Source: Ulota crispa (Eukaryota; Streptophyta; Bryopsida; Orthotrichales; Orthotrichaceae). Taken from it: 64,000 bases of DNA. This document shows positions 1,054 to 57,027 of the stretch, one piece after another. Within the stretch, counting starts at the first letter, position 1; each line of letters opens with the position of its first letter. The stretch lies in assembly GCA_963920765.1 (NCBI GenBank), contig OY987248.1, positions 4,560,539-4,624,538 of the forward strand, given 5' to 3'. A program made the position numbers and the translations under genes. The notes under the pieces were generated by a model. That model searched no databases. It saw nothing but the letters and a program-made list of their open reading frames with translations, and was not told the origin of the DNA.

Positions 1054-1294
1054 TTAACCCTTAAACAACCAAGCAACCCTTTGCAACAAGTACAATACGG
1101 GTATTTTTTTTGTATTTGGAGTGCATCCACACTTTTACTACATTTGAGATTAACAAAAAAGTTAGAATATAGATCAATGGTGTTCTAGTGAGGTAATAAA
1201 GACCCCAAATTAAAACTTTTTGTTGGTAGCATATGCCAACTATACAACAATGTACATGCTATGTATTATAGTAGCTTGATTCTTTACGGGTTAA
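1054..1294. mobile_element. TTAA-flanked piggyBac-type MITE, short class
   Basis: The element runs between TTAA at 1054-1057 and TTAA at 1291-1294. Its termini begin CCCTTAAACAACC on the left and end TTTACGGG on the right. The interior matches the short class also found at 9309, 12658, 15893, 37526, 37813 and 55719, with the shared block GAGATTAACAAAAAAGTTAG followed by ATCAATG. CCYT...ARGG ends with TTAA duplication are typical of piggyBac. There is no ORF, so it is non-autonomous. Confidence 0.7.
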
Positions 1295-1302
1295 ACACAT
1301 AT

Positions 1303-1819
1303 TTAACCCTAGAGTGTCCCAGGGGTGATTATATTGCCTTTGGTTTTGAAAAATGTCCACGTTTGACTCTTATCCTCTTTTTAATGATACAGTCAAAGGA
1401 CTTGTACTTTTTCATGTACCTTCAAGTGTGTGTCTACTACCACTCAAAAAAAATTCAAGCTATTTGACTGTACCTAAGTAAACGCCATATTTGTTAATTT
1501 GGGAACTATGTTTGAATTTGGGACTTCTGAAGGTTTAAGGTGATCACCTTAAACCCATCTTTAGGTTTAAGCAACGTTTTTTTGGTACACGTGTCCTCAC
1601 CTAAGAGGAGGAATTTGCAAGAGAAGAAATCTTTGTGACTCAAACTGAATCTGACACCTTTGAATTTAATTTAAGATAACTTTTTGGATTTAAGATGAAG
1701 TTCAATTTGGGAATTGCATTTCCCAATATAATGAATTTTGATGTTGGTAATAGTTTTATTGGATTAAATACAAAAAGGTATGAATTTGAGTGAATATGGC
1801 CTGGGCGCCCAGGGGTTAA
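1303..1819. mobile_element. TTAA-flanked piggyBac-type MITE split by a nested element
   Basis: The outer ends are TTAA-CCCTAGAGTGTCCC at 1303 and GGGCGCCCAGGGG-TTAA ending at 1819. With the inserted AACGCCAT element (about 1481-1747) removed, the two halves match the uninterrupted 255-bp copy at 12882-13136. Both copies have a TGACT/TGATT block, the AAAGGAC block and the GGATTTGAGTGAA-like block before the right end. It starts only 8 bp after the preceding TTAA element. Confidence 0.72.
1481..1747. mobile_element. AACACCAT-family MITE (family B), nested
   Basis: The left end is AACGCCATATTTGTTAATTT, followed by the family's GGGACTTCTGAAGGTTTAAG block, the GGTGATCACC palindrome, a TTTTTTTGGTACACGTG block and CCTAAGAGGAGGAATTTG. 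The right end near 1740-1747 is degraded. It interrupts the TTAA element at 1303-1819. No ORF. Confidence 0.65.
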
Positions 1820-2284
1820 AACTTGCCTAGCCACTAGAAACTTGAGGGATGAGGCGAGGGATTACTCAATACTGTATGCCACCAAAGGTACACGTCAGAA
1901 TATGAAACGATGGCAAAGACGGAGCGAATGAAGCGATGCCACGTGGATGCAAGTGACGTCGAAACAACCGTACTCGCTCCGCAAAATGAGTGGCAAACCC
2001 CAAACCCTAACTCCAGCAGCACATGGATAAGCACGCATCTCATGAACATACAATGGCCGTGCTTAGCTTGCTTCGCAAGCACGTACCAATGCCGTCGTAG
2101 TCATGAGTTGAAAGCCAGCTGACGTCGTCTTCACCAGCAAATGGTCGCTCCACATGGAAAGCGATGATAGTGACTGGTAACCACTCGTCATACAAGTCTA
2201 CGCAACTCTAATGGCGACGTTTCAATGCCGCAATTTAACATGAAATCATATATTTTTTCTCTTATGACCATTTCACAAGTCTTG
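1820..2284. other. Intergenic, moderately GC-rich, no gene seen
   Basis: The segment at about 1840-2220 is less AT-rich than its surroundings and has 70-82 codon open frames on both strands. None shows a family motif or a supported splice structure. It may be an old genic or transposon fragment. Confidence 0.35.
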
Positions 2285-2286
2285 TA

Positions 2287-3278
2287 CTCCCTCTGTCCTA
2301 TTATAAAGCTCCAAATTAGGTATAGTTCTTTTCCCACTAAAAAGTTCCCTTTTGCTAATTTCAGTTGTTGGGAAAGCGTTTGATGTCATTTTCAAAGATC
2401 TCATGGGGGTAACTTAAGTAATTAGAGAGCATTCCTTTCCTACCAAGCTTGGTCTTGCCCATATGAGGTACCATTGTTGCTACTAATCTTTAGACCATCA
2501 ATAATGAGGAAAAGTATTATTCGTTAAATTGGGATAAATGGAGGTACCATTTTGTACTCCACAAACCCAATAAGTCACCTTAAACCAGATTCAAAGGTAT
2601 TAGATTCAATTTGAGCCACTAAGATTTTTTCCCTCACAAATTCCTCCTCTCAAGTGAGGTACACATGTACCCAAAAAAAACGCTGAGCTCAATTTTAGGA
2701 GGCCTCCTGAAACCTTCAAAAGTCCCAAAATGTAAGGTTTTTCCCAATTAACAAATAACGCTCCTGGAGCTAGCAACATGTACAAATAGGTACTTTTTGC
2801 ATGGAATTTGGGTGCCCAAACAACAACATCAAAGTTGGAAATTTTGCATACATTTGGTATATGGTATATTGATTCTAGAATGCATGTGCCATTAGTACAA
2901 AGACTAAAATAATGAGGAGCTTACAGCATTTACAGTACAAATAAGGTAATTTTTAGCATGGAATTTGGCTGCTCAACCGGCAACTTTGAAGATGGAGAAT
3001 TTGCGTACACATTTGGTAGTTGGTATTAATATTGATTATAGAACGCATGTTTCATTAGTACAAAGACTATAAATATTGAAGAGCTTGCAGCATTGACAAA
3101 CTATGTATAAAGATGGTATTTTTAACATGGAATTTGACTGCTCAACCAACAACTTTAAAGATGGAGAATTTGCATACACCTCGTAGATGAGTTACTTATT
3201 TTGGATTGCATGTCTCATTAGAAATAACATTGAAAATACAGTTAAATTTTTTGGAGCTTTATAATGGGACAGAGGGAG
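2287..3278. mobile_element. Stowaway-like (mariner-type) MITE with TA duplication, copy C1
   Basis: The terminus CTCCCTCTGTCC at 2287 is mirrored by GGGACAGAGGGAG ending at 3278, with TA on both sides. This is the classic plant Stowaway signature. The interior carries about three diverged tandem copies of a roughly 150-bp unit (TTTGCATGGAATTTGG... ATTGATTCTAGAATGCATG). A family B element is inserted at about 2510-2765. No transposase frame. Confidence 0.8.
2510..2765. mobile_element. AACACCAT-family MITE nested in the Stowaway element
   Basis: Internal blocks are the reverse complement of the family seen at 17798-18053, including the CGTGTACC-type block, CACCTTAAACC and CCTCTCAAGTGAGG. Stowaway copies at 38485 and 57635 are uninterrupted here and read ATGAGGAGCT-like or ATGAAGAGCT. 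This exposes the insertion point between ATGAGG and GAGCT. Confidence 0.65.
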
Positions 3279-3530
3279 TAGAAGTTAATTTGCAGAAGTT
3301 CACGATGAGGTCGAATAACGATCTTCACCAAATCGGTCAGAACCGAATATGCTTCCATTGACTGCAGGTACGCTTATGGTACAGCTCCAGTTCAATATGA
3401 ATGGTTTTTTGGCCATGGTACATTAGCCATTTTTCCGACCGGTCAAGAATCCAGGCCGCGATGTGTGGAGATGTTTTACGAAATTTTCACCATCGCCGAA
3501 ATGCGTAAGGAATCCATGATGATCTTCAAT

Positions 3531-3795
3531 AACACCATATTAACACCATATTAGGTAAATTGGGAAAAATAGTACTTTTTGGGACTTTTGAAGGTTTAGG
3601 TGATCACCTAAAATCAAGCTCAGCTTTTTTTTTGGGTACACGTGTTGTCACCTAAGAGAAGGAATTTGCAAGGGAAAAATTCTTAGTGGCTCAAACTGAA
3701 TCTGATACCTTTGGATCTGGTTTAAGATGACTTCTCTAGATCCAGGTGACGTACAAATTGGCACCCCCCGTTTTCCCAATTTACCTATTCAATAT
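3531..3795. mobile_element. AACACCAT-family MITE, duplicated left terminus
   Basis: The terminal AACACCATAT occurs twice in a row, at 3531 and 3542. It is followed by TAGGTAAATTGGG, the GGTGATCACC palindrome, GGGTACACGTG and CACCTAAGAG. The right side ends with CCCAATTTACCTATTCAATAT at about 3795. No ORF. Confidence 0.65.
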
Positions 3796-4768
3796 ATTCT
3801 GCCGTGATTATCGCAATCTCAGGGACGTCATAACTTAACTTACTGCTTGTTATGCCTTGGGTTTTTTCTGGTTGCCTCGTGTCTCTGGCTGCCAAGGACG
3901 ATCCAGGAACAGGATATTATCGTTTCTGGCTTCATTTCTACTTCAAGCGGTGACGAACTATGTACTACAGGTAGATACTTTCCGTGTCTTTGAACATTGA
4001 CTGATGCGTGATTTTCTTAGAGTAAATTTGGTCAAGGAGCAAGCTTTGGTAATAATCTTGTCTTGCCTCTGTTTTCCATGTTAGTTTCTATTCCAGAAGA
4101 TCGCCATCGTCGTATGTTTCTAAGCCGGTTTCAATTTGTTACAACAGACCTTTGAAGCTGTTTTGTTGTTGTCTCCAAACTCTTTTTCTGACGAAGCCGA
4201 TTCTTATCTTAAAGCAATTGAGATCTTTCAGCGAGTGTCCTGGCGAGTGTGTGAATTACATGTAAGAGGATGACTATGGAACCCATTTCAATGAGTCATT
4301 GAAGCCAGTAGCAGACTCCGGGAATCGTTTCAGAGTACTTACAATTAACCTGAACTTGAAAAGCTGACATAATTTTGTGCCAGGTTCTTGCGCATTGCGA
4401 CGTGGGTATGTTCCTGTTGACGCTTACAATATTATCTCTTTTTGTTGTTATAAGTTTATGCGTGAGTGAGGAAATTTTCCATTGAGTTTGTCCTTGTATT
4501 TGTTAGCAATGGCGGTTTGGAGTAAATTGTCCGGCTGTATGTTTCGGTAAAGGTTTCCTGCAATTCTCCAACCATTCTTTTTAAGTCGATAGCGTGTGCT
4601 ACTGGCTCTCCAGGGTTATATGAAGTTAGTTTTCTTCTCATGCGCAGGTCGGTTAGGACGCGCATTTCCGTGTCGCAATTCGAGCTTCGAAGCTTAGGCC
4701 TTGGAGTGCACATATCGGCCTTGATGATTTCGGAGGTGATAAAGAGAAATATTGCAGCGATCTCCCTC
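3796..4768. other. Upstream flank of the DUF688-like gene
   Basis: About 970 bp without a recognisable gene or complete transposon. It is less AT-rich than the deep intergenic DNA and probably includes the upstream regulatory region of the gene starting near 4.8 kb. No specific binding site can be supported. Confidence 0.35.
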
Positions 4769-4775: not shown

Positions 4776-4878
4776 ACTTCTTTTGACCAGATCACTTAGT
4801 GCGGAAGAGCCGCCAGATGCAAGTCGTCCGTGACAACGAGACCCATTTCTTAAGCGCAAGCTCACTTGGCTGTTTCAG

Positions 4879-5475
4879 GTAATCGTTTCTTCACATTCAA
4901 TAAAACTCGAAAAAGGTGACTTTGCGTACGATTTTCACCAGCTCTCCAGAATGTCATCATCCCTTTCCAAGCCATGCCAAGTTTTCGTGCTAGATTTTAT
5001 GAGATAACCCCCTGGTCAGCCACAAAACAAGCCGCAAAAGAATTTGTCAGTACAGTTTTTTATGTTCGCATGCCACTTAAATCTTAGCCGCCGCAGTAGG
5101 CATTTGGGTCTCTAGTACAGCTATTCTACGATCATTACACTGAATATTGCATTTAGGTTACCTCACACTAATGGTTGACCATGCTTGGATTTCACATGGT
5201 TTACAACCTTGCTATTTTTTTCTGCAGCAGCTTTGTAGTGGTTGCAAGGCCCTTTAAAACTGGTTTTTTGCATTAGTGATGAAAATCATTTTTACAAGTG
5301 TAAGATATGAGAATTAGTGTGGAGCAACCTAAACGCAATATTCAGTGTAGGTGTTGGGATCACGAGATACAAATATGTAATACAGATTTCCAGGGTTTTG
5401 CGGCTTTCGGGCAGTAGAAATCTCTGGCAGAGTGCAGATTCATTAAATTGCGGAAATGACGTCTTCTCGTGACAG
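4879..5475 (+). other. Candidate 5' UTR intron of the DUF688-like gene
   Basis: A good donor (TTTCAG|GTAATC at 4878/4879) and an acceptor (CGTGACAG|GCC at 5475/5476) bracket this stretch. Splicing would remove the out-of-frame ATG at 5456 just before the gene. The proposed leader exon holds an ATG at 4817 whose frame would run to a TAA just after the junction, giving a 20-codon upstream ORF. This is inferred; the polypyrimidine tract is weak. Confidence 0.35.
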
Positions 5476-5489
5476 GCCATAAGATTCAT

Positions 5490-7661
5490 ATGATGACACG
5501 GCAATCTATGGCGAGGGTGTCCTCCGCATCGCCGGAGGCTGATTTAGCTCCTGCTGTCCAGACACCATTTTATTGGGAGGCTGTGCCTGGGAGAGCTGCA
5601 GCAAGGAAAAGTACTGAGTCTGAATTCTCTGGAAGTCCAGACTGGGACTCGGATGATGCCCCAGCGCTTCCATTTCCTCCTGGCAGACGACCGAAGGATG
5701 GATTTTATTTGCCATATTCCCGTGAATTCGGTGAATCTCCCGATGTGCAGCTCGAGTCACGTGGAAATAGCCCGAAGCAACGGAAACTATTTAACCTAAA
5801 GTTTCCTGGATCTTTCAAGAAACCATCTCGGATGCGCCTGCCATTTCAACACTCTTCAAAGCAACCAAAGGCGAGCCACATGGACGAGGATCAAGGATTT
5901 CATATGGTCAATCCTTTATCAGGCCAAAGGTTTGGCTCCAGCATCACGAATAGAGTGCTCATGCAGTTCCAGAAGAAACAACCCTTGTGGAGGCGATGCT
6001 TACCATCTAAGCCAGAGCAGGTGAACGGAGGATCTTCTTACATAGATCCGAACAGACGCAGAAGACTAGACGAAGGCTTAAGTGATGGTTACGTCACTGC
6101 CGCCAATTCCCCTGTCTCGGGACCTTCCCTTCCGTCATCCCCCGGCCCCAACTCCTCGCCTGGAATGGTCAACAGTAGCCGATTTATGGCCTCCATGTTG
6201 ATTTCCCTCTGTCCAGATGACGCTAGTGATTCACAATTTGATGCAGAGGATGGAAACTCTGATGATTGCAACGACGAAATTGGTATCCCTCACTCAACAA
6301 CACCGAGGACCAAAAGTTCATCGCCGACAGCATTTGAGGACAAGGTGGATCCAGCTTCACAAACCGTTACATCACAGGAAAATTGGACGTGTAATTGCAG
6401 ACATGTTGCTAGTATGATAGAGTCGTCAGCGTCTCAAAGCGGGAAAACGTCCAGGAGTTTGCACGAGCTGGAGCTCGCCACAGCTAGTAGGTCGCCGTCT
6501 GAGCATTCCAAGAGTGAGAAGTTTGTATGGCCAAGAATCCACGGCACTAACGACTCCGCAAGCAAATTTAATGAAAATTATCAAGAGGATAGTGCAGATG
6601 CGTATCCAGCGTTTTTAAAAGCATCTTCAAACAGGGAGCTATTGCGAAGTAGGAAGATTTACAAATCTCCTTTTTCTTGGAAACCATGCACGGAAAACAA
6701 TCGCCAGAATGAGGAGCCTATAGAAGATTCAGTTGCTGCTCAAGAGCCAAACCATTCTGAGTTCGTGCAAACGATTCTCGACGACGATGAGGAGGAAGAC
6801 GAGCGCCGACGAAGAGACCAGTCCTTTTTTTCTCCAGGTAGCAACAGATCTTCCTCACCGGAGTTCAATTCTCTGCACAAGACCGTCTGGTTCCGATCTA
6901 ATTCTCTCATTAGTACAGATGTAGATAAATCCGAGCCAAAATCGAAGAACATAGTACCTCATAGCATGGTTGGTTACTTATCACCGCCACGGATCTCAAT
7001 CGAAGATTTGAATTACACCAGCAGTAACGGTAAACTGAAGCCCTTTGCGAGGTGGAGGTCCACTGTAGAGCCATCTGCTTCGAGAAGAAGTTCTTTAGAA
7101 CCAGGGGGGTCATCTGAGCGAAACGAAGCATCTGTAGCCCTAGATTCCCTACACCTGTCGCAGAAGCAAGCCTTGCAGATCAAGATTAGGGTCAACGCTC
7201 TCAAGCATAAACCGTCCTTCCTACGGCCGGCTTCCTTAAAAGCCCCGAATGTCTGTGGCTCAGATGAATCTAGTGACGATTCTGACTGCAGCACAGACTC
7301 TTCCAGTTACGATACTTCTTCAACGGTCTCGGCTCAAATGCGGTACAATTTTGCATCACCGAAACCTACATCTCCGAAGATGGTCATGCCCAACTTCCAT
7401 TGTCAACCACGAGTCAGCCCCTTCACGGAGGATCAAGAGACCAAACAACCAGGACCTAGTTTCAAAGAGATCATGATGGCACGGAGCCATTCGGTACGCA
7501 CCTCTTCCTCACGAAGATTCCCGCCCCAGGAATGTCAAGGACATACCAATCCAAGTCATCACCCTACAGCAACAAGCAGACTTCAAAAAACGTCGTCAGG
7601 TTCGATTGTGATGAGCAAGGTGGCTCTGTTTGAGTCGAGGGCTGGAGTGAGCAAATCTTGA
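5490..7661 (+). CDS. DUF688-like serine-rich plant protein
   Basis: Single uninterrupted coding exon of 723 codons, starting at the ATG-ATG pair at 5490. The frame stays open upstream to 5469, but no in-frame ATG precedes 5490. Near the N terminus (about residues 25-36) is TPFYWEAVPGRA, which matches the (V/T)PFxWExxPGxP motif of the plant DUF688 group. The following 50 residues are rich in D, P and F (PDWDSDDAPALPFPPG). The middle is a low-complexity Ser/Pro/Asn region with RFMASMLISLCPDD near residue 231. An acidic-then-basic run DDDEEEDERRRR starts near residue 431. The C terminus is SKVALFESRAGVSKS. No membrane segment or signal peptide is seen. The molecular role of this family is not established; a disordered, possibly phosphorylated protein is an inference. 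The family assignment rests mainly on the WE..PG motif and overall composition. Confidence 0.85.
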   Translation: MMTRQSMARVSSASPEADLAPAVQTPFYWEAVPGRAAARKSTESEFSGSPDWDSDDAPALPFPPGRRPKDGFYLPYSREFGESPDVQLESRGNSPKQRKLFNLKFPGSFKKPSRMRLPFQHSSKQPKASHMDEDQGFHMVNPLSGQRFGSSITNRVLMQFQKKQPLWRRCLPSKPEQVNGGSSYIDPNRRRRLDEGLSDGYVTAANSPVSGPSLPSSPGPNSSPGMVNSSRFMASMLISLCPDDASDSQFDAEDGNSDDCNDEIGIPHSTTPRTKSSSPTAFEDKVDPASQTVTSQENWTCNCRHVASMIESSASQSGKTSRSLHELELATASRSPSEHSKSEKFVWPRIHGTNDSASKFNENYQEDSADAYPAFLKASSNRELLRSRKIYKSPFSWKPCTENNRQNEEPIEDSVAAQEPNHSEFVQTILDDDEEEDERRRRDQSFFSPGSNRSSSPEFNSLHKTVWFRSNSLISTDVDKSEPKSKNIVPHSMVGYLSPPRISIEDLNYTSSNGKLKPFARWRSTVEPSASRRSSLEPGGSSERNEASVALDSLHLSQKQALQIKIRVNALKHKPSFLRPASLKAPNVCGSDESSDDSDCSTDSSSYDTSSTVSAQMRYNFASPKPTSPKMVMPNFHCQPRVSPFTEDQETKQPGPSFKEIMMARSHSVRTSSSRRFPPQECQGHTNPSHHPTATSRLQKTSSGSIVMSKVALFESRAGVSKS

Positions 7662-9308: not shown

Positions 9309-9500
9309 TTAACCCTTAAAGGACCGAGGAACCCTTTGCGGTCAATATAGTATCTAGTATTTTCTTGTATTTGGAATGAATCCACACCTTTACTACATTT
9401 GAGATCAAGATCCCAACTAAAACTTTTTATTGGTAGCAAATGCTGGTTATATGACAACGTATTTACTATGTAATACATAGAGCGGTCCTTTAAGGGTTAA
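9309..9500. mobile_element. TTAA-flanked piggyBac-type MITE, short class
   Basis: TTAA-CCCTTAAAGGACCG at the left and CGGTCCTTTAAGGG-TTAA at the right form a 14-bp perfect terminal inverted repeat. It is about 50 bp shorter than the other members of the class. The interior shares the CATCCACACCTTTACTACAT-like block. Confidence 0.75.
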
Positions 9501-9577: not shown

Positions 9578-9582
<5 letters not shown>

Positions 9583-9738: not shown

Positions 9739-9977
9739 TTAACCCTTAAGCGCCCTAGCGACAGGATCTTGTCGCTGGGGCCCACAACTTCATCTCATTT
9801 TTTCTCTCAATTTGTAAAATGAAAACAGTCATGGTTGGTCTCCATCAATAAAGAAGGTAGTCTTTTTTCAAATCCTACAGTCGCTTTTTTCTGGATGTAA
9901 TTTTCCAAGTTGTGGTGGCCATTAAACCCCCCATTTTCTCCTAAATCCAAAAATAACTTTGGGCGCTCAAGAGTTAA
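9739..9977. mobile_element. TTAA-flanked piggyBac-type MITE
   Basis: The left end is TTAA-CCCTTAAGCGCCC and the right end is GGGCGCTCAAGAG-TTAA. The interior differs from the GGACCG class, so this is a separate subfamily with a GCGCCC motif in its ends. No ORF. Confidence 0.7.
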
Positions 9978-11474: not shown

Positions 11475-11795
11475 TCTGTAAGGTTTACAGGATTCTAAAG
11501 AACGCGAATGCGACTTTAAAAAGGTAAGTTTTTACATAAGAATAAGATCTTAGAACCATAGGATTTCCATGTGTGACATTTTAGTGGTATAGTCTAGAGC
11601 TCATATGACCCACACATCCTTCCAAACGTTGAGCCCTAGCATTTCTAACTTGCTCTAGTATCTAATGCTCACCCCAGAAAAATTCAAGCTGGTAACCCAA
11701 ATTCCTGAGAATAATACTGGTTTCTGTACAACGTGGTTGTTGAAATTATCGAGCAATGTACTGGGCATCTTCTCGAACGATGTAAGAGTACAAGA
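11475..11795. repeat. Tandem repeat copy 3, includes the gene's own 3' end
   Basis: This copy carries the authentic stop codon and last about 16 codons of the SdpI-like gene (11746-11795) and its downstream flank. Copies 1 and 2 lie immediately downstream in transcriptional order, so the gene is followed by two decayed copies of its own tail. Confidence 0.75.
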
Positions 11796-12390
11796 CGGAG
11801 AGGGCAGTGGGGACGACGAACAGACCAGCCAGGAGCAGCAACTGCCACAGCCCAGACGGCACGAAGAAGAGGAGCACGACGCCGGCGACGCCGGTGGCAG
11901 CGAAGGCGCAGGAGGCGAAGAAGTGCGTCTCGTCCCAGACGTTCTCACTTCGAAGAGTCCACGTGTCGCGAATGCCCACCACGTAGTTGGGCTCCACGTG
12001 CTGGAACACGGCGCCCAGCGCCAGCTGCAGCAGGCACGCGAGCAGCACGAACGGCGCGGTGCTGACATGGCCCCGCGTGGACGCCACGATGACCAGCACC
12101 TCCAGCGGCACGGCGAACAGGCACGGCATGGCGATCACCGCCGCCACGGCCGCTCTGGAGGGCGCGGACTGCGAAGCCATGCGGGGGTCGCAGGCGGTGA
12201 TGAGCGCCAGGAACAGGGCGATGCAGAAGGCCGCGAGTGGGATGATGAGGATGGCCAGCATGCGTGGGATGGGCACGCTCTTCCACATGTGCAGCTCCTC
12301 CGGTAGCCATGACACCGCTGCTAGCCCCTCCAAGAATGCCACCGTGCTCAGGCACGCTCCTGCCTCCACACCCCTCCCTATGAACCCCAT
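11746..12390 (-). CDS. SdpI-family six-helix membrane protein
   Basis: Intronless frame of 214 codons. The ATG at 12390 is the first in-frame ATG. The signature NYVVGIRDTWTLRSENVWD (residues 135-153, followed by ETH) matches the conserved 'N-x-x-x-GIR-T-x-W-T-L-x-S-x-x-V-W-x-x-T-H' block of the bacterial SdpI/YhfL family, an integral membrane immunity/signalling group. About six hydrophobic helices are visible: about 12-30, 42-66, 79-104, 111-131, 156-177 and 181-205. Upstream, LPEELHMW (29-36) is reminiscent of the LPxxxPxHW block of the DUF1648 domain that precedes SdpI, but it is degenerate. Length fits the family (about 200-220 aa). The gene is much more GC-rich than its AT-rich flanks. 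The role in a plant is unknown. Old bacterial acquisition is an inference; DNA from an associated bacterium is unlikely because plant MITEs flank it closely. Confidence 0.72.
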   Translation of the reverse strand: MGFIGRGVEAGACLSTVAFLEGLAAVSWLPEELHMWKSVPIPRMLAILIIPLAAFCIALFLALITACDPRMASQSAPSRAAVAAVIAMPCLFAVPLEVLVIVASTRGHVSTAPFVLLACLLQLALGAVFQHVEPNYVVGIRDTWTLRSENVWDETHFFASCAFAATGVAGVVLLFFVPSGLWQLLLLAGLFVVPTALSVLYSYIVREDAQYIAR

Positions 12391-12657
12391 TGCCACAAAC
12401 CCCCACGTGCTCTGCAACCCTAATTGCTCTGCATCCCCTTCCCTCTCAAGGCTCGGATCTGGACGACGAATACAAACACCGCACGGCTGCTGCCGAACTC
12501 GATCTCATCTTCACGACATGAAACTCTCGACTTCGGCAAACAACACTCGAAATGGATTCTCTTGCAGGTGCGTGTTACTCCACTTGTAAACCCTAAGCAC
12601 TCCTGAGCAGTTGTCTTCCTACCATTGAGACACAAATCCAAGGCTGCTAAGTTAGCC

Positions 12658-12885
12658 TTAACCTTTAAACAATCGAGCAACCATACGACATAGTATGTAC
12701 GCTGCTGTATAACTGGCATTCGCTACCAATAAAAAGTTTTAATTTGGGATCTCAACTTCCTCACTAGAACAGCATTGATCTATATTCTAACTTCTTTGTT
12801 ACAAGAAAAATACATCTACTGTATTGCTTACTATACTACAAGCTGCTTACTATACTACAAGCTGCTCAGACGTTTAAGGGGTTAA
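12658..12885. mobile_element. TTAA-flanked piggyBac-type MITE, short class
   Basis: The left end is TTAA-CCTTTAAACAATCGAGC and the right end is GACGTTTAAGGGG-TTAA. The interior matches the short class in opposite orientation (CTACCAATAAAAAGTTTTAA, TGGGATCTCAACTTCC). A small internal duplication of a TACTATACTACAAGCTGCT unit lies near 12829-12866. It lies about 270 bp upstream of the SdpI-like start codon. Confidence 0.7.
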
Positions 12886-13136
12886 CCCCTGAGCGCCCAA
12901 GGGGCCAAAATATGGCCTCTCGGTTGTGAAAAATTTCCTTGTTTGATTGTTATAATCTTTTCATTTTCAATGGTACAGTAAAAGGACGTGTCCTTTTCCT
13001 TGGAGCTCCGGGCCTATCTTCACTACCAATCCCGTAAGGTCAATTTTTGTGGATCTCATTTAGGTGATAATTTGATTGGAATGAGTTCCAAAGGGTTTGG
13101 ATTTGAGTGAACTTGTACTGGGCGCTCAGGGGTTAA
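12882..13136. mobile_element. TTAA-flanked piggyBac-type MITE abutting the previous one
   Basis: The ends TTAA-CCCCTGAGCGCCCA and TGGGCGCTCAGGGG-TTAA form a 14-bp TIR with one mismatch. The left TTAA (12882-12885) is the same four bases as the right TTAA of the preceding element. This is the uninterrupted counterpart of the element at 1303-1819. Confidence 0.78.
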
Positions 13137-41789: not shown

Positions 41790-44468
41790 AGTGACGGTTT
41801 TCGAGCTACCTACCGTAGTGTGAATCGCCCCCTCAAACCTTGTCGTCAAGATCTGCAATAGTTTTACAGGTACCACTAGCAGGAAGATTATAAAGTTTAA
41901 GTCAAAGATTAATAAATGTTGGATTAGATTAATAGTTGTTATACTTGAATGAGCAAAACAACTAAGCTAAGTTACGTACTTATTAGAAGTTACTCATGCT
42001 CTGCAAATGATTGGAATTACTGACAGCACCCGTTGGGGCTAGTAAATACGTGTATTTTTTTTGACGGTTGTAAGTTCGTGAAACAAGCAATACTGTAGGG
42101 TACAGGGAATTTTATTTAATATACTTTATTTTGGTCAAAGACAACTACTTTTTTACATAACTTTGTACAAATCATTTTTATCGCGAGTAACCTAGAAATG
42201 ATTCTCGTACTCTAAACCCATATCTCAAACTGTAAAATAAAATAAATTATTTGAGGCCTATCAATCTTACTTTTTGGTGTAGTTATTTAAAATTTTAAAC
42301 TCTCAAGGCCCCACACCATCCGGTATCGTTGAGTTGCTTTTAGGCCCCATGCACATTTTAGTGTGGTTTTGGTAACATGCAAGATTGTTACATATATTTT
42401 ACAGTCGAATTGCATTCTTAGCTTAGTGACGCATCAAAGAAGAATATTTTTGCATGAATTGAGACTAACAATTTTTAGTTTATATAGTTTATAGTAATTG
42501 AAGGTGGCAAAGCTCTTCAACTTTGGAGGTTTTTTAGTGTCTTTCGCACATTGTAAGGAGTCTTGCATGAGCTGGTGCACAAAGTACAATATAATTTTGG
42601 ACAAATGTGCAACGACTTTGAGCCAATATAATGGGCAACTTTATTAGCACATTTGAAGAAAAAGTTTCAAAAAAGGTAAGCGTTCAATTTTAAAAAGGTT
42701 TGTGGGATATTGTAAAGAACAATTGGCTTGGCAATTGTATCACTTGAACTTTCACTTGTCAATTTGCAATTTATAACAACCAACAATGGAAGCCCATTGA
42801 TTAGCACGTTTATAAGACAACCAAATGGCTCCTTACTCTTTAGACATTATGATCAAGAGATTACAACCTTGCCTTCTCCACATGCACTATTGCAACAATA
42901 ATGAGTAGTGCAATTTGAAGGCGCCCTATCACCAAGTACGACTTTATCATTGCAACACCCATATCTCACTCTCTATTTACAACAATGTATGTGTGAAGCA
43001 AACTAGAAAACAAATAAGACAATAAGTGCTCAATATTGGCAAAGCCACATGCATGAAGTCATCCATTGCCAAACAAACACAACAACTATCCATTGGCTAT
43101 GTCCAATCAATTTCCGAAAATCTAATACAAGTTGCTAGGTCATATTTTTACTTAGTGGCATTTTAGCATAAGTTAAGCAAATTCTAAATTACCTACACTA
43201 AATAGTGCATTTAAGTTGCCTTAACAATTAGGCTACATTATCATGGCAATGTTACCTCATGACTCACCCTTGGCCACCTAGAGGGGCATGCAACTCTCTT
43301 TGTGCTAAAGTTGTTCATGATTTTATGTTAAGTTCTAACTTCCTTGCTCCCTAATTGTGGCACTTGTTGTTGCACCCAACCTTTGCTTGCTTCCTCCATT
43401 GGGTATCACAGTTACTATCAACAAAAGTTACTGTACTCTTGATAAATAGTTAAATAATGTAAATTGTTGAAAAATTAGTATGGGGCAACCTAAATGCACT
43501 ATTTGATGTAGCAATCTAGCAAGTACACCTAGGGGGTTACAAAGGAAAGCAATCTAACTTGAATTCATTTCACCACACTCTCCAATCATCTACCACTACT
43601 AGTCTAGATTGAAAGATATTGTATGTTAGAGCAGATTCAACACTAAGCTACCAAATTAACTATTTTTTGTGAAAAGTTTGATTTAGCATTCAATTTTGCA
43701 TTAATTAAGGATTGGGCATTTTCAAAAAAACATATATAAATTCAATCATTTTTTAGTACAATCAAGCATTTTACAAATTATCTTTGATTTTCAAAATTTA
43801 CCCTTAATATACGGTAAATTGAGCCTTCTTGAAATTAGCCTAAGCCTTCCAAAATTAGCTGAGCCTAATGACTTTTATAATATTTGACACTTCAATTTTT
43901 AATTTGTTTAACATTAAACATTTTTGGGAAATAATTTACAGAATAATTGGGCTATATTTTGGGGAATTATTTTATGCCTAACCTGCTCTCAACCTACAGT
44001 AGCCAAAGACGTATTTTGCACTTGGCATGTGGCCTTTGTTTACGGCACACACCAGTTTTCGAACCAAGGGTATAATGTTTGGCTCTTTCACTTGCTAGGA
44101 AAACATAGGAATTTTGAAATTTAATAATTCGAAATCAAACCCAAAAACTTCAGCTCATATTTGAATTCACAAACTCTAAATCATACATGAGTTGTTGTGG
44201 TAAAACTGACTAACTATAAACTAAAATAAGACATCACATTTTTTTAAAATTTTATCCGCATTTAAAAATACATTTGGACTTTTCCACCTTAGGGGTCCAC
44301 AAATAGGCTTGTGCATTTAAGAAACGTTGAGAATTAATAACCAAAGTAAAACACTCAAACCTTTGCTAAGTGCACAAATGAATATATACATGTATGATTA
44401 TGTTCATCGTAATTTATGACAATGGCATAGGAATTAAATATACAACAATCATTTGAGATAGTGAATGT
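41790..44468. other. AT-rich intergenic DNA, about 2.7 kb, no gene seen
   Basis: No supported gene, RNA or intact element. The start carries a GGTTTTCGAGCTACCTACC sequence related to the ends of the element at 31702. Confidence 0.4.
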
Positions 44469-45502
44469 TTAACCCGTAAATGCCCAAGGCCATTATGAAC
44501 TTTTTGGCATTTTCAGGAAAGTGCACAATTAATTAACCTTTTCATAAATTTCATCAAGTTTTTTTAAACTATAATTGTACAAATTTAAACTTGACATGTT
44601 AGAGATTACATGGAAAAAGAAAATACAACAATATCATTTGTAGTTTGAAAAACTACTGTAGCTTGGTAGCAGATTTGGCTTAAAATAATTTCCTAAAATT
44701 TTGCCTAATTATTCTCCAAAAATGTCCAATATCAAACAAATCAAAAAATTGAAAAATATTATAAAAGTCATAAAACTTACTAACAATGAAAGGTCAAGGT
44801 TGATTCAAAGAGGGCTCAATCTATTGCAAGTTTTATACCAAGGGCTAATTTTAGAAAGTGGAAGATGCTTAGAAAAAAACTTAACTCTACTAAAAAATTG
44901 GTTGAATGCCAAATAATAACAACTTTTTTTGAAAGTGCCTAATCTTGTTTAATTATGAAATCAGATGCCTAATTGGGTTTTTCTCAAAAACAATTGATTC
45001 GACAGAGACCTGCTGAATCTGCTACCAACCTATAGTATAACATTTGAACATGAGGGTGTTAAAATTGCAAAAGTGGCTTGAAGTTTTCTAATGCTCATTT
45101 CACTTGTCAAATCTAAAAAGTTGGTCATCAAAAAAATACAAGGTTTAAGGTCATTATATGTTTAACTTTAGTCAATTTACAACTTCCAAAATCTACTCTT
45201 GTATTTTTTTTAAATGGATTGCTAATGCGGAATTTTCTCCAAGTTTTGGTGTATTTGAGGCTCATTTTCAAGATCTTCCAACACTAGAAAACTCAAGATT
45301 GCAGTGGACACCCTTGTACAAAATCTTGAGTAGAGAAATCATCAAATTTTTTTTAAAAATCAAATATTTGATGTTGAAAATAGACTTCAAAATAAACTTG
45401 TATTCAGAAGAAAATACCAAAATTAGTGATTTGATAAGGTTTTATTTGTCTCCAAAGTTTTAAAAACACCTAAATTGGGTGCCTTGGGCATTTAGGGGTT
45501 AT
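44469..45502. mobile_element. TTAA-flanked piggyBac-type element (1.03 kb)
   Basis: TTAA-CCCGTAAATGCCCAAGGCC at the left and CCTTGGGCATTTAGGGG-TTAT at the right; the last base of the target site has changed. Same family as 26002-27560, inverted and shorter. A 101-codon frame at 45158-45463 has no transposase features. Confidence 0.75.
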
Positions 45503-45844
45503 ATTGTTATTTTAGTCTGGAAGCCCTGTTTTTCTTTCCCAAGTTTAAAAGAATGCTACTTGAAAGGACAAAATGAAATTATTGTGGACTTTCTTTGTTG
45601 TTCAGTTTTTAAATATGTTTCAATCAGCAATGACTTTTGCAGGTGAGAACCGAAGCAAGTACCTCCCTGTCGTTTGTTTGTTAATTAGAGACAAAACCAA
45701 AATATCTGTGTTTCTCCAAGTGTTGCCTATCATTCTTCTTAACTAAAAGACTTTTCAATTTGGACTTAACAACCAATTTTTCTTATTTAGCAATTCATCA
45801 AACTTTGCACACTCTCCACCAGCATATTATTTTTGGATTTTCGG

Positions 45845-46100
45845 TAGGTAGAGCGACACGCACCCCACATGCGAGCAGGTAAGGAAAATTTTGACAGATT
45901 CATCGACGTCTGCTTGTTCATTCATAAATCTACTAATTTTCGTAACTTTCATCCAAAATCTGACAAATCTACTGCAAATCTCGGGAGGGATTTGACGAAT
46001 TCATCCATTTTTTGAGAGGTTTTTCCTAATGTTATGTTCGTCAAGCTAATTTCAAGGTATGATTTAGGCAACTATTTGCCAAGAAAATTTACGTTGCTCT
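45845..46100. repeat. Diverged dispersed repeat, partner at 52500-52773
   Basis: Shares in the same order GCAGGTAAGGAAAAT, TTCATCCAAAATCTGACAAAT, GACGAATTCATCCA, ATTTCAAGGTATGATTTAGG and GCGAAGAAA-type blocks with 52500-52773. No coding capacity, identity unknown. Confidence 0.5.
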
Positions 46101-46582
46101 CCACCGTTATCAAACCTCAATTCCTTAATATCTCATTAGTCTATTGACTTTTTTCTTAAATGATCAATTTTTTTGAAATCTTGGAACCAATTTATTTCAA
46201 AATATTAAAAAAATAATCCCATGACCAATTGTACAATCTCCCGGATATAGTTCCAAAAGTTTTATGCAAACAATTTCCTAGGAGTTTAAATATTCAAATG
46301 TAAGGATTGTGAACTTTAACCACTTGAAAAGAGGGTTGGCTCAATCTTTAGCAATTATGACCATCTTTTTACACTCATTCCTATATTTTGGTAGCCAATA
46401 TCTCTTGAGTTTTTCCAATGTCTTGACCACGTGGCAGCTTAGCTAAACTTGATTTTTGTTCCAAGTTATGTAGTTCCTAATTACCTACACACGTCTCCTT
46501 TGCCACATACTCAAATTCCTTGACAAGCTCTCCCTACCAACTAAAAAGAGCCAAAATTGACTAGAAACTAATCAACCGGTCT

Positions 46583-47237
46583 TTAACCCCAAAACGACCC
46601 CAGAATTTCTTGAGCTTCTAGGAATTTGTTCTAATTTGAACAAAAAGTCAACAATTTGATAAGTTTTATCAATTTTTTAAAATTTGTAATAGTATATAAT
46701 CAAACTAAACATGTTAGAGATCACATTAGAAAAGAAAATACAACAATATCTCTTATGTATTGAAAGATTATAATGTTTGATCATGGGGGTGTTAAAACAA
46801 TAAACGTGATTTGAAGTCTTTCAATCTTCTTTTCACATGTCAAATTTGAAAAGTTGGTCACCAAAAAAATATGAGGTTAAAGGGCCTAACATGCATAACC
46901 CCAATCAATTTATGACTTCTCAAAATCTACTTTACAATTTTTTAAAATTAATTTCTAAAGTGTTCTTTTGTCAAAGATCTAGTGTATTCAAGACTCATTC
47001 CCAAGAGCCCTCAACATTACATAAAGTCAAGATTGCAATGGACATCCATGCACAAAATCTTGAATAGAAAAGTTATAATCAATCATTTGCAAAATTAGAT
47101 TGGCAAAGCTAAAACTAAACTTCAAAAATAAATTTTCAAAAAAATAAATTACTAAAAATAGTAATTTGGTAATATTTTATTTAACTTCAAAAATTGATTG
47201 AGGACACATTTTGTCCTCAATATCATTTTGGGGTTAA
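46583..47237. mobile_element. TTAA-flanked piggyBac-type element (0.65 kb)
   Basis: TTAA-CCCCAAAACGACCCC at the left and CATTTTGGGG-TTAA at the right. Inverted counterpart of 29001-29644. Confidence 0.75.
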
Positions 47238-47453
47238 TGCGTTAATTAGATGTCATTGAAAATCTTTGACATGAGGTAGAATGGTGGATTGCTGCATGAT
47301 CAGGGCATTTTTTTTGACGAGTCTATTTTTGCTAGATTCCAAAAGAGCGCAAGCGATTGGAGAATAAATAGAGGGAGCAGCCTCAATTAGTTGTCTCTGT
47401 CGCTAGTTGGCTTTTTTTTGCCAAAAAACAATGTGCTGATGATCATGATTAAT

Positions 47454-47757
47454 CATAACATTCAGTAGCACTCATCAAGCCTACCCTCCCTCCAACCAAA
47501 GAGTGTGGAATATTCCACACTCTTTCATCCAGCCGATGAAAGAGTGCGGAATATACCACACCCATCAGTAGCTAAGAGGACACTTGGCTGAATTTGTTAG
47601 AGAGTTTATAAAAGAGAGGCTCAGTTTAGTGCACATACATTGATGTGGGGGCTAGCCATGTCAGAAAGAAAAAGGAAAACATTGTGTCAGGACAAAGTTT
47701 GTGGATGATACTTGAAGAAAGAGAAAAGCAACCTCTCTTCAGGCTACTGAATGTTAT
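47454..47757. mobile_element. MITE with CATAACATTCAGTAGC ends (family E), copy 2
   Basis: CATAACATTCAGTAGC at the left and GCTACTGAATGTTATG at the right: a perfect 16-bp TIR. Interior inverted relative to copy 1 at 30763. Contains a direct or inverted repetition of the AGAGTGTGGAATATTCCACAC block. Confidence 0.72.
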
Positions 47758-47949
47758 GATGAAATTTGCACTACAATAACCACTTGAAAAATAAAGCAAG
47801 ATACTAGAAAGTGGTTACAAAATAATTTTGTAACTTTTGGTGCTTGGATTTTAGTATTCTTCACATAGGTAGAGGTTGTTTAGCATAGGCACAAGTAACT
47901 GGTAATTGCGCCATAGTTTGTTAATCCTCAAGGGTGCCGATTTTAATTA

Positions 47950-48313
47950 GGGCGGCTTCACACTATGGTCAAAGGTTGAGAGGCCGTTGGTTTGCACCAA
48001 TCAGATTGTACAAAATTGAGAGTCTGACCGCTCAACCCTTCACACTAGAAGCCAAACTCCAAAGGCCGTCATCCCCATTTGCCTACATGGCAGCACTTTA
48101 TCATACAAGGTTAGCAACCTCTCAAAAAAAAATTTGGGTTTAACAAAAATGGAGACCCAAACTATGTACAAGAGACCATCAATTTTAGCATTTATTGATG
48201 TCAATTTTAACATTTATTATCTATTTTCAGCCGGATTTCTTGACCTCTTAGCAAAGTTTGGCCACTCAGTTTGATGGCCTCTCGCCTTGGCCAGTCATAG
48301 TGTGAAGCCGCCC
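47950..48313. mobile_element. Tourist/PIF-like MITE with TTA duplication
   Basis: GGGCGGCTTCACACTATG at 47950 is mirrored perfectly by CATAGTGTGAAGCCGCCC ending at 48313, with TTA on both sides. G/C-rich GGG start plus TTA duplication fit PIF/Harbinger. 364 bp. The 69-codon frame inside is not a gene. Confidence 0.8.
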
Positions 48314-49180: not shown

Positions 49181-49851
49181 TTAACGCCAAAGTGCCCGAG
49201 GACCTCAAATTGGGACACTTAGAATTAAACTTTTGAGAGAATCTGCTTCAAATCAAGGTGTACTATGCCAGGACCGTACCTACTGTTTGGGGGTGGGGGT
49301 ACCAATCATGGGGGTTTGCGGCGATCTTAGGTTTGGATTTAGGGCACACATTTTACATTGATGGGAGCTTGAGCTATTTAGGCATATTTTATGTTTGGAA
49401 GTATTGCGCTGATGTTTGAGGGGCAATGGCACATAGGCTTTGGTAGGAAAAGACCAGAGGACCTGCACTTCAAGCGTCCCAAAATTTGACATTGAAAGAT
49501 GAAATTTTGACCAAATTTTGGCTTTGGGCATAGAACCCAATCACTCAACCCCTCCAAAAATTACAGCACAAGGGTTGTACTCTAACACCCTAGCCTTGGA
49601 GCCCAAACGAGAAACCCGCCCCAAAAAAGATCCTCGTCCCCGGAGTCAACGTGTCTTTGACTATTATAATCTGGCAAAATCAACGCTACAAGAGCAAAAA
49701 AAATTCCACCCGAGGCAGCTACAAGCCATACAGTACATTCAACGGTCAACCAGCCCAGATCGCAATATCCAGATCAGGGCGCCCATAAGAAGGGAGCATG
49801 GTATGAAAAAACCTCGGAACCCCAAACCAATTGGGGGCGCTCAGGGGTTAA
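49181..49851. mobile_element. TTAA-flanked piggyBac-type element (0.67 kb), GC-richer interior
   Basis: TTAA-CGCCAAAGTGCCCGAGG at the left and GGGGGCGCTCAGGGG-TTAA at the right. A 113-codon frame (49518-49859) reads a proline/arginine-rich sequence across the element end and is not considered a gene. It abuts the TTA of the preceding Tourist-like element. Confidence 0.65.
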
Positions 49852-50474: not shown

Positions 50475-51434
50475 TTAACCCCTAAAGGACCAAGTGGCTA
50501 TTCAATAGCCACTTGAGAACTTGGGTAGGGTCATATGAAATTAATTTTTATTGGATGTTCTCAAAATTGTTACACAAGGTGCATATATGTATCCCATAAG
50601 TGGAGGTGTAATTTTTTCCCCAATTGGATGCTTGGTTTAAAAGTTATGTTACCCAAAAGAATTTGGGCAGCTTGGACAGCTTGGACATCTTGGAGAATCT
50701 TATGCTAAAATTCTCATCAACTTTTGAAGTTTGGCAAGTATGTAACTAAAAAACATAATGTACAATTGTCAAAAAAAAAGAAAAATTTGAACTCTCACAT
50801 CACATTTAGAAGGGAGTCAAACTTTGTTAATTATATTTGGGTAGTTTCAAGAAAAAAAAAATCTTTAACTTCAGGTTTTATTATCTTTCAATCTATAAAT
50901 CCAAAACTCTTGAATATTTTTTTCACATATTTGAATTGATTATCTCTAACTTTTTACTATTCAATTTTCAAATAAAAGATTTCTTCATTGCACAAGAAAT
51001 CATGAAAGAATGACTAATGTATTGCCAATTCACTAAACCTCCTTGCACTATATGGTGATTTAGAATAAGCTAGATTCTATATTTGCATTTGAAAATTTTC
51101 ATGAGTGAACCTAACATCATATACTTGGGAATGGTCAACAAGCTCAAATTTATGTAGAGCAAAACTTTTACTCTAGAAAGGCTCAAAGTCTACTGACCTT
51201 GTTTTGCAAGAATGAAAAAAAGTTATTTTTCTCACTTCAAATATTATAATCTTACAATCTGTGCGGTCAAATGGGCTGAATTTTTTTTCACACATTAACT
51301 TATCTATTTAACACACTTTTGTATGGTTGGAATTGAGAAATTAGGTTTTTATTTTCAATTTTGGGCAATGCACTAAAAGTTGGCAATTTTTGAGATTTGT
51401 TCTCAAAAAACACCCTTGGTCAATTAGGGGTTAA
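50475..51434. mobile_element. TTAA-flanked piggyBac-type element (0.96 kb)
   Basis: TTAA-CCCCTAAAGGACCAAGTGG at the left and CCTTGGTCAATTAGGGG-TTAA at the right. No frame above 71 codons. Confidence 0.75.
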
Positions 51435-52773: not shown

Positions 52774-52776
52774 TAA

Positions 52777-53970: not shown

Positions 53971-54767
53971 TTAACCCCTGAGCGCCCAGCGCGAAAATGA
54001 GAAAATGAGGCCAGGAGTGACCATGCTCGTAAAAATTGCAGCCCCAAGTTGGGAACTTAGATCGGGGAGGATTCACCGTTGAAATAGCAAAAAGAGTGCT
54101 TGATGCACCCAACTAGAAATTTGCAAAATTTTTGACCGCATCGTTTCGGAGATTATAAAAGTCAAAGTACAATTGACTATGTGGCAACCGGCTAATTTTG
54201 GGGGAGTCCATGGCTATGGATGCAAAAATTCATGCCTTAGAGGAGGCTCCTTCATATGAAATTTAGACAGGGGGTGCAATTTACAAGCATCTTGCTTGCT
54301 GCCAAATTTGGTAATGTTTTGACATCCACAAGGTGCTTTTTTAGAGGCCCAAAGTTGCAAGACTCACACGGCATGGTGAATGATAGATGGGGTACGGATA
54401 CAGTTTTGACCTCCACAAGGGCACGAATCTCGATAGTATAGCTGTAAAACCCTTTTCTAGTCTAAGGCATGCATGCCAAAATACCCTAATAGTATTAAAC
54501 TGGCCATAGCCGGTGATCTTTATCCTTGCACCTAAACCCTAAACCGCTTGGAATGAAGTTTTAATGTACTATTGTCATGGTTGACTTGCACAATCCGTGC
54601 TTGTACAAGTGATGAAACCCCCGTTGCGCACTTCCCGATATGAGAATAGTACCATACCTTTGACCAAGTTACTTTTCCGGGAGATACAATATAAATTTGA
54701 ACCAGATTTTAAGGAAAGTTCGATTTGCAGAGGCCATATTCTGGCCTGTGGGGCGCTCAGGAGTTAA
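53971..54767. mobile_element. TTAA-flanked piggyBac-type element (0.80 kb)
   Basis: TTAA-CCCCTGAGCGCCCAGCG at the left and GGGGCGCTCAGGAG-TTAA at the right. It shares its end type with the 255-bp element at 12882 but has a different, larger interior. Confidence 0.75.
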
Positions 54768-55718
54768 CTGCGTTTGCGCAAAGAATGTAATTTTGACTCC
54801 ATGATGCACACATATGAGCAATGTTTGACTCCACATACACGGAAAGAAATTAACAATGCCGCGACCAAGGATGTGATTGCCAAAATCAGTAGCACGTCTC
54901 TCCTTAAACTATATGCAATCTCTACATTCTCAAGGATACCCTTGCAAGTTTTCAAAAAATCAAAGATATTCACCAAATAATATAAAATATAATGGTATCA
55001 ATCAAATTTTCTCCCAAATTAAGTACACTAGTGACTCAAACTCTCGTAGTGTATAAGAAACAATAGGAATGTGGTTTCTATTCCTTAGAGAACTGATATT
55101 TTTAAGTTTGTTGTTATGTTCCATTAAGTTATTATTTGTATATAGAGCACCAAATTGCCATACCTATTTAGATGGTGCCTCTCCACGCCCTTTGTAATGG
55201 ACCCTCCATGGATGGTGCTTCCTTGCGTTGCATAGCCAAGCAATGCTACTTTGTGAGCAAGGATTTGTAAGATTGAATTTTTAGTCAAAATACTAATTGT
55301 ATTCATAGGGCCTTAGAATTGTGCAGTTTAAACCATCATCTCTTGAAAAACTTGCTATTTTTTAAAAATTATTCCATTAATTTTTAGTTAAGAATTAGCT
55401 CTTGCTCATGGAACCTTGAATCACCGCTTATGGCTCACCATTTTACTCTCACAAAAGAGTGTCATTCATGCATAGCCCTTCTATTGATAACCATGGATCA
55501 CAAATTATTCCTCTATTTCTACAAATTTTGTTCATCCTTTTCCATGTGGTGGTTGATGTCGAGGTAATACTTGACTCATTGAGCATTATTCTACTCAAAC
55601 ACCACTCAAATGCCATTACCTTGTGAAAAGTTTAAAAAAAATAAATTTGCAAATTTCATTTTGAAGTAAGATGTGGAATCTTCTCATTTTTGGTTTGTTT
55701 TTTCTGTTGCATGTTATT
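54768..55718. other. AT-rich intergenic DNA, no gene seen
   Basis: Only frames of 60-70 codons; no motif. Confidence 0.4.
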
Positions 55719-55958
55719 TTAACCCTTAAAGGACCGCTCTATGTATTACATAGTAAATACACTACCATATAACTGGAACTTGCTACCAATAAAAAGTTTT
55801 AATTTGGGATCTTGACTAGCTCACTAGAACCACATTGATCTATATTCTAACTTCTTTGTTGATCTCAAATGTAGTAAAGGTGTGGATGCATTCCAAATAC
55901 AAGAAAATACAAAATACTGTATTGGCCGCAAAGGGCTCCTCGGTCCTTTAAGGGTTAA
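55719..55958. mobile_element. TTAA-flanked piggyBac-type MITE, short class reference copy
   Basis: TTAA-CCCTTAAAGGACCG at the left and CGGTCCTTTAAGGG-TTAA at the right: perfect 14-bp TIR. 240 bp including target sites. Confidence 0.85.
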
Positions 55959-56116
55959 ACACTGGTAAATAAACAAACATGAAACTCAAATTGAATTCCA
56001 TTGTTGTAGATTGTGCTAGAATACAATGAGTGTGTTGTGATAGGATAGAAGTTTAAATGATGCAAACAAAAATGAACTCATCATTCAAGAATAAAGGATG
56101 TAGGAAAACAAATTGC

Positions 56117-57027
56117 TTAACCCTTTAAAGACCACACACATTTTCCCAAAATCCACTAGAAACCAGGGCAATAAAGTTAGTTGTGTATTTGAATCAAATT
56201 GGGACCCAATTTGAATAATCCAACCATACAAATGTGAAGGACACTTTGTTTGTTGTAACGTATCAAAATTTCAGCTAGATTTGTTGTTGGAGGTGAAATA
56301 TTATAATGATTGAGTGAGCCGCACATGAAGAATCTCTAATTTTTCATGCTTGTATGGTTTTGAATGTTAACGCTTCATGCAAGCTTTGATTGAGAAGAGC
56401 CTTACATTTCTAGAAAGTAGGGTTTCTCACCTTTCCAACAAGACTAGTTTCACACAAAATAAACAAAAATATCAATCACAAGGTGTAGCTAAGTGGACAA
56501 AAAGGGTCAAAAATCCCATTTTCTTTGCTACCCTAAAACGGTTCTACAAGAAATTTGATAACTATTATGGAAAATCCAACCAGTGAAAGCAATCAAGAAT
56601 TGGCCTTTAATGTAGGATGAATTTTTTTAAAATAAATTGATAGCATCATTTCAATGGGTTCTCAAATACTACAATTGTACTACTATTGTATAGAGAAATA
56701 ATACAAACATATTTCTTAAGCAATTTGAATTTTTTTAAGATTGCACAATTGAAATGTGGCATTCTTCTTGGATGTTTGATGTATTGTGTTGTTGCTTTAA
56801 TCTATCTTTGACCAAATATGGATACGTATTTTGAGGCCATGATGTATAAACACCATTATTTATCAACTCACATATCCAATTCCATTGTCATTTTTGGGTT
56901 GGATGCAAAATTCTTGTGATCACAAGCATTCTTAAAGATCATTTTCCAAATTGTTGAGCAATTTTACTATAGGCTAAAAACTACTCTCCCAAACCAAAAT
57001 ATGGTTTGGTGGTCTCTAATGGGTTAA
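56117..57027. mobile_element. TTAA-flanked piggyBac-type element (0.91 kb)
   Basis: TTAA-CCCTTTAAAGACCAC at the left and GTGGTCTCTAATGGG-TTAA at the right. Related ends, distinct interior. No frame above 69 codons. Confidence 0.68.

Follow-up and report, generated by a model that had tools for sequence, protein, structure and literature searches.

Introduction

piggyBac is a workhorse of animal genome engineering, and the miniature inverted-repeat transposable elements (MITEs) that accompany it in animals are short, non-autonomous and TTAA-flanked, having mainly their termini in common with a transposase-bearing partner. Kolobok and Sola3 elements likewise target TTAA, with transposases that differ from those of piggyBac. 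Here, we describe 19 TTAA-flanked elements in a 64,000-nt stretch of the Ulota crispa (Bryopsida) genome (contig OY987248.1, positions 4,560,539 to 4,624,538; hereafter the window, on contig C7 of the 275-Mb assembly, within which all element positions are counted). We read these elements, with a probability of about 92%, as non-autonomous piggyBac elements, that is, as MITEs whose transposases are encoded elsewhere in the genome.

In the literature, piggyBac is described as known from plants (PMC10140906), with an occurrence in their genomes that is said to be only occasional (PMC12732532), and it is named among plant or angiosperm DNA elements in reviews (PMC10794571, PMC10004981). In individual genome papers, the fern Ceratopteris is credited with 1,230 copies amounting to 122 kb (0.00%; PMC6890710), and Stipa with one 75-bp match (PMC8319324). 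As far as these counts go, plant piggyBac annotations are traces, whereas the 275 Mb considered here contain 25,829 strict termini and at least 120 transposase domain matches. A search of open-licence PubMed Central papers, with subscription papers and repeat databases outside its scope, brought up none that we recognized as reporting piggyBac elements to be abundant in a land plant; in PMC10619864 the term used is 'piggybacking'.

The elements of this genome share with piggyBac of T. ni and with piggyBat the TTAA target, CCC-type ends, a PF13843 domain with DDD-type motifs, and downstream cysteine clusters. They differ in their host, which is a land plant, and in size, the transposase-bearing elements being 5.0–7.0 kb long compared with the 2.1–3.5 kb given for beetles (PMC12732532) and the 2.2–3.5 kb given for bees (PMC10140906). 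Unlike animal piggyBac MITEs, the short elements occur in a plant, where several end types and transposase lineages are found together. The mechanism is that of a known superfamily, and it is the host and the abundance that are surprising.

Results and Discussion

Termini and Families of the Window Elements

A terminus profile was built from the 19 left ends and put through three rounds of refinement on the window, where it marked 43 sites (22 left and 21 right). Ten sequences simulated with a first-order Markov model gave 0–5 sites (mean 2.4), a contrast that is optimistic because training and scan used the same window. Of the 43 sites, seven begin with letters other than TTAA: 12884 and 45502, which mark element ends, and five that are probably chance matches. 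In a letter check of the window, TTAAC starts all 19 left-end positions, and a right end was placed for each, with two of these (41789, which is tentative, and 47237, which was placed by homology) coming from a laxer scan. TTAA is present at 37 of the 38 ends, a count that holds partly by construction, TTAA being in the profile, and the lone exception is TTAT at the right end of the element at 44469–45502. The consensus of 32 ends from 16 window elements, CCCCTAAACGACCAAG, has the CCYT-like inverted form. The elements range from 192 to 1559 bp and add up to 10,699 bp (16.7% of the window), or to 9,330 bp (14.6%) when three nested repeats are subtracted. No similarity to a transposase was detected in the window by tblastn with transposase frames (E 0.01), and the elements are, in being short, with inverted ends, no coding capacity and many copies, MITEs. 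The preliminary description of this stretch had listed 19 elements flanked by TTAA with one TTAT, and both points stand, one right end being tentative; its total of about 10.8 kb, or 17%, is near the full sum.

Blast comparisons among the elements resolve a family A of seven copies (about 240 bp), a family B of four copies, and a group C, less tight, whose members were put together by end type. In each of its five members (1303, 9739, 12882, 49181 and 53971), one end or both resemble GAGCGCCC or a variant of that sequence; by blast, 1303 and 12882 are joined, as is 53971 over 39 bases, and the other two are not. Three elements (40874, 50475 and 56117) stand outside all groups. The elements are as follows (window coordinates, without strand; line of evidence in parentheses).

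1054–1294: family A MITE, 241 bp including both TTAA (profile, blast, alignment)
1303–1819: group C MITE, 517 bp, with an unrelated repeat nested at about 1481–1736 (profile, blast)
9309–9500: family A MITE, 192 bp, without about 48 bp that other A copies have (profile, blast)
9739–9977: MITE with group C-type ends, 239 bp, without a blast relative in the window (profile, blast)
12658–12885: family A MITE, 27% off the majority consensus (profile, alignment)
12882–13136: group C MITE, 255 bp, ends CCCCTGAGCGCCCA (profile, blast)
15893–16133: family A MITE, 241 bp (profile, blast)
26002–27560: family B MITE, 1559 bp, with a nested element at 26718–27446 that has 21-bp inverted repeats (profile, blast)
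29001–29644: family B MITE, 644 bp, 85% identical to 46583–47237 (profile, blast)
37526–37766: family A MITE, 241 bp (profile, blast)
37813–38046: family A MITE, 234 bp (profile, blast)
40874–41789: MITE with a strong left end and a tentative right end at which 10/16 bases agree (profile and laxer scan)
44469–45502: family B MITE, 1034 bp, right flank TTAT, with a nested element at 44654–45037 (profile, blast)
46583–47237: family B MITE, 655 bp, right end from homology to 29001–29644 plus TTAA (blast, laxer scan)
49181–49851: MITE with one group C-type end, 671 bp, without a blast relative in the window (profile, blast)
50475–51434: MITE, 960 bp, with a paralogous empty site at L023:9032–9313 (genome copies)
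53971–54767: group C MITE, 797 bp (profile, blast)
55719–55958: family A MITE, 240 bp, of a young subfamily (blast, genome copies)
56117–57027: MITE, 911 bp, ends CCCTTTAAAGACC / CCCATTAGAGACC, resembling end pairs in the transposase loci L013 and L017 (profile)

The two nested elements at 26718–27446 and 44654–45037 have inverted ends of 21–22 bp (GGGTGATTGCAAGAAACACTT and TACTGTAGCTTGGTAGCAGATT). Two unpaired terminus-like sites, at 50128 and 52776, one reading left to right (CTAACCCCTAAACC) and one in the opposite direction (TTAACTCTTGAACGCC), are perhaps leftovers of further elements.

TTAA as the Target Site

One exact 22-base terminus of family A occurs 48 times in the genome, in 46 cases with TTAA in front. 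For the young family A subfamily, TTAA flanks each of the 12 copies fetched, including that of the window, at either end, with no similarity among the copies in the 200 bases of flank. In the case of the element at 50475–51434, the paralogous empty site aligns with the flanks over 283 columns at 83% identity, and the alignment is gapless at the junction when a single TTAA is kept, consistent with a 4-base duplication. The junction of the empty copy reads TTAATTAA, with a second TTAA where the filled copy has CAAA in its four upstream bases, so that the argument from the empty site rests on length. The termini, the fetched copies and the empty site all fit a TTAA target site duplication of the piggyBac type, and no duplication of another kind, which the preliminary description had named as the observation that would speak against its proposal, was seen among them.

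A different reading of the same flanks is that the bases truly duplicated are TA, through a mariner-like element that has ACCC...GGGT ends and strongly prefers TTAA sites. Insertion into TTAA with duplication of TA yields an identical sequence, and the window contains arms that resemble what we take to be TA-flanked Stowaway ends. The transposases enclosed by such termini (see below) are nevertheless of piggyBac type, and TTAA duplications are reported for piggyBac elements (PMC12732532). We therefore regard a TA duplication as extremely improbable and take the flanks to be TTAA duplications of piggyBac elements.

One TTAA, at 12882–12885, is common to the elements starting at 12658 and 12882. 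Back-to-back ends with a single TTAA are also found in transposase loci, at L011 9026–9029, L015 9307–9310, L018 129–132 and 807–810, and L024 2157–2160, and among the 12 family A loci there are back-to-back neighbors on both sides in L030, on the left in L032, and a weaker one on the right in L036. AGGG lies flush against TTAA at 717 of the 25,829 strict ends; we claim no insertion preference beside sister elements.

Abundance in the Genome

The genome-wide terminus scan that the preliminary description had proposed was performed with a strict motif, TTAACCCYTRARNGNCC, which covers the A, B and C end types together, and gave 25,829 occurrences in the 275-Mb assembly compared to 2 for the reversed pattern. 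This motif recovers 13 of the 38 window ends, and 17 compared to 63 profile-scored ends in the 20 transposase loci described below. Scaling by these sensitivities suggests a total of about 75,000–96,000 ends, that is, 38,000–48,000 elements, extrapolated from small samples of which the 20 loci were picked around transposase genes; at the mean length of the window elements this would correspond, very roughly, to 8–10% of the genome.

Dispersed candidates run into the thousands, with first-look genome candidates numbering 3,354 and 2,082 for two of the window elements. Among the 40 candidates scored in each case, the element at 55719–55958 has 39 further genome copies at 93–95% identity, and the element at 50475–51434 has 39 further full-length or near-full-length copies at 85–90% identity.

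Transposase-Bearing Elements

The genome contains at least 120 matches to PF13843, the piggyBac transposase domain (best E 1.3e-73; 116 of 528 first-look candidates scored), and none was found in 14 named control genomes. We examined 20 transposase loci of 9.9 kb each, listing the TTAA-anchored inverted pairs around each gene. Two of these, L015 (contig C1) and L016 (contig C2), share about 90% identity across the whole interval bounded by TTAA, their flanks are unrelated, and the similarity ends exactly at TTAA-CCCCTTGAGG...TTAA, delimiting transposase-bearing elements of 5.2–5.3 kb and settling their borders.

With the ends in view, seven elements of 5.0–5.7 kb were initially picked (L009, L011, L015, L016, L017, L019 and L028). 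Under a blind rule, which takes the best TTAA-anchored inverted pair 3.5–7.5 kb apart around the gene, CCC or CTC was present on both sides in 12 of the 20 loci (L009, L011, L013, L015, L016, L017, L018, L019, L020, L021, L024 and L028), compared to 1 of 20 in a direct-orientation control. The top pair of L014 has GAGCGCC-like ends and a low score. Two direct-orientation TTAA-anchored 16-mers (L027:1723 and 7007), alike at 15/16 positions, flank the transposase gene of L027 and are perhaps a direct repeat that encloses it.

The stop-free frame of L013 matches structures 6x67/6x68, listed as Transposase (4.1e-20), which we take to be T. ni piggyBac, and the piggyBat structure 9c0f (5.8e-17). 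Searched for by pattern across frames, the first, second and third catalytic DDD motifs were found in 13, 17 and 15 of the 20 loci, respectively, and all three in 9, including L013, so that the triad is present in the set while most copies are decayed; N replaces D in the second motif of L018 and L027 and in the third motif of L013. A cysteine pattern downstream of the domain, as in the C-terminal cysteine-rich domain of piggyBac transposases, was found in 18 of the 20 loci, with some instances weak (e.g., L013).

The open frame of L016 extends for about 310 residues ahead of the DDE domain. Five upstream open frames (L011, L013, L017, L019 and L020) gave no Pfam match up to E 0.1, and similarity among upstream frames was limited to L011 with L020 and to L017 with a stretch of L028; the coordinates of row L012t in this comparison were wrong. 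The frames upstream of the transposase at L011:5902–7191 (minus strand) and L020:2284–3675 (plus strand) are long and Gln/Glu-rich, with weak mutual similarity. The L022 locus, at about 1.18 Mb on contig C1, has a transposase gene of piggyBac type in two stop-free stretches, 4050–4541 and 4812–5738; no CCC-type end pair was found around it, and it is a candidate domesticated gene. Stop-free stretches are also present in L012 and L013.

Taken as the source-element search that the preliminary description had called for, these analyses gave PF13843 genes enclosed by TTAA-flanked CCC-type inverted ends, which supports its piggyBac-type proposal, and none with the ends proper to family A; the second outcome that it had named as refuting, a source transposase of a different superfamily, did not arise.

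Correspondence between MITE Ends and Transposase-Element Ends

The 38 MITE ends were compared with the ends of the transposase-bearing elements over 16 bases, alongside 915 other TTAA-anchored sites of the window. Against the four L015/L016 ends alone, 27 of the 38 MITE ends agree at 9 or more of 16 bases, compared to 15 of the 915 other sites, and at 10/16 the numbers are 18 and 4. With the seven picked elements as reference, 35 of 38 compare to 26 of 915 at 10/16, and 30 to 2 at 11/16. The 12 loci over the blind score cut-off, which was set regardless of end sequence, reach 38 of 38, compared to 45 of 915, at 10/16. A control with random references (mean 11.8, maximum 36 of 38) is invalid, since real element ends were in its pool. 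PF13843 transposases lie between ends matching those of the MITEs, with family A tied to them by a short end motif only.

A tree of 25 domain rows, which has no support values and from which row L007, taken from the wrong strand, is disregarded, shows end types following clades in four pairs: GAGCGCC in L014/L018, AAAATG in L017/L028, TTTARCGACC in L013/L025, and TAAATGCC in L011/L020. A single end was used for L013, L025 and L020, and the ends of L013 and L025 were taken from the MITE-derived profile.

Several observations weigh against assigning the window elements to piggyBac. The seven comparison elements were picked non-blind, and L023 falls in the L014/L018 clade while its nearest profile ends are of another type; our confidence is slightly lowered because of both. 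Under the blind rule, 8 of the 20 loci have no CCC/CTC pair, L010 and L025, whose ends are unrelated, exceed the score cut-off, 4 of the 20 direct-orientation controls also pass it (L027 scored 35), and L020 and L021 probably borrow the end of an adjoining MITE. Only one element pair, L015/L016, is delimited by copy comparison, and the empty site is a single case at 83% identity with a second TTAA just upstream in the empty copy. A TA duplication within a fixed TTAA is indistinguishable by sequence from a TTAA duplication. Stops interrupt 110 of the 120 listed PF13843 matches, and present activity is unsupported. Finally, family A is linked by the short end only, at 9–12 of 16 bases with known ends, and no transposase-bearing element with the ends of family A was found among the 20 loci.

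This last point bears on the alternative that some families, chiefly A, were moved by a different TTAA-specific superfamily, Kolobok or Sola3, and resemble the piggyBac elements in their ends only. Both superfamilies also use TTAA, as the preliminary description states for Kolobok, and family A, besides the missing partner, has ends that agree less well with the known ends than do those of B and C. Set against this, one end design is common to the families, a single motif for A, B and C is found 25,829 times compared to 2 in the control, and the genome holds at least 120 PF13843 matches, no search aimed at Kolobok or Sola3 transposases having been made. We consider this alternative unlikely, and retain the assignment of the window elements to piggyBac.

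On this assignment, 5–7 kb elements elsewhere in the genome would encode piggyBac superfamily transposases that recognize the short CCC-type ends of the MITEs. The MITEs would be cut out at the flanking TTAA and inserted at other TTAA sites, with duplication of TTAA. Several transposase lineages, active at different times, would have moved them in trans.

Ages of the Copies

Measured against the majority consensus of 18 aligned copies, the divergence of the family A elements is 3.3% for 55719, 7.1% for 37526, 7.8% for 9309, 16.7% for 15893, 19.6% for 1054, 24.0% for 37813, and 27.4% for 12658. Since 11 of the 18 aligned copies are the best genome matches to 55719, this consensus leans to the young 55719 subfamily, and part of the divergence may reflect subfamily differences instead of age.

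The preliminary description had spoken of a dense burst. This part of it finds no support, because several families are mixed in the window and the family A copies lie 3–27% off their consensus, and a single burst is rejected on the same grounds; the 19 copies appear to be layers of repeated activity. That the cluster is nevertheless a local burst particular to this window might be argued from its 13 strict termini, where 64 kb of the genome contain 6.0 on average (a 2.2-fold density). Apart from the mixture of families and the 3% to 27% spread in family A, sliding 64-kb stretches over the initial 1.57 Mb of contig C1 reach the forward count of the window, which is 9, in about 5% of cases and have a maximum of 12. 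A local burst is hence very unlikely, and we prefer repeated activity of piggyBac elements.

Other Features of the Window and Genome

A BES1/BZR1 domain is encoded at window positions 23364–23855, and the genome contains six SAM_LFY matches, one of them strong; because of this domain and of the LFY segments elsewhere in the genome, the DNA is of plant origin. An LFY segment carries H at the residue that is D in mosses and Q in hornworts, which by this rule would speak against either group. A frame that by eye resembles a BED finger lies close to a weak SAM_LFY-like match in L042, at about 33.97 Mb on contig C1. On the minus strand of the window, an open frame at 11746–12417 carries an SdpI/YfhL domain (E 6.8e-12), a family known from bacteria.

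A further dispersed repeat occupies positions 1481–1736, 2519–2757, 3542–3733, 17798–18039, 19488–19743 and 57829–58036, with TAAATTGGGA-like sequence in some copies. Inverted repeats with long spacing and TACTCCCTCTGTCC ends are found at 2281–3284 and 57624–58488, and resemble Stowaway/mariner-type elements.

Conclusions

We would put at even chances the broader view that this genome hosts one of the largest non-animal piggyBac radiations, in which several old lineages of transposases, with ends and MITE swarms of their own, jointly occupy several per cent of the genome, forming a native plant TTAA-specific and potentially seamless system, with at least the L022 gene maybe domesticated. Our analysis suggests that the piggyBac superfamily may be a sizeable component of plant genomes, and that plant repeat annotation may leave piggyBac elements unclassified. 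The genome offers sets of transposases and ends for studies of specificity.

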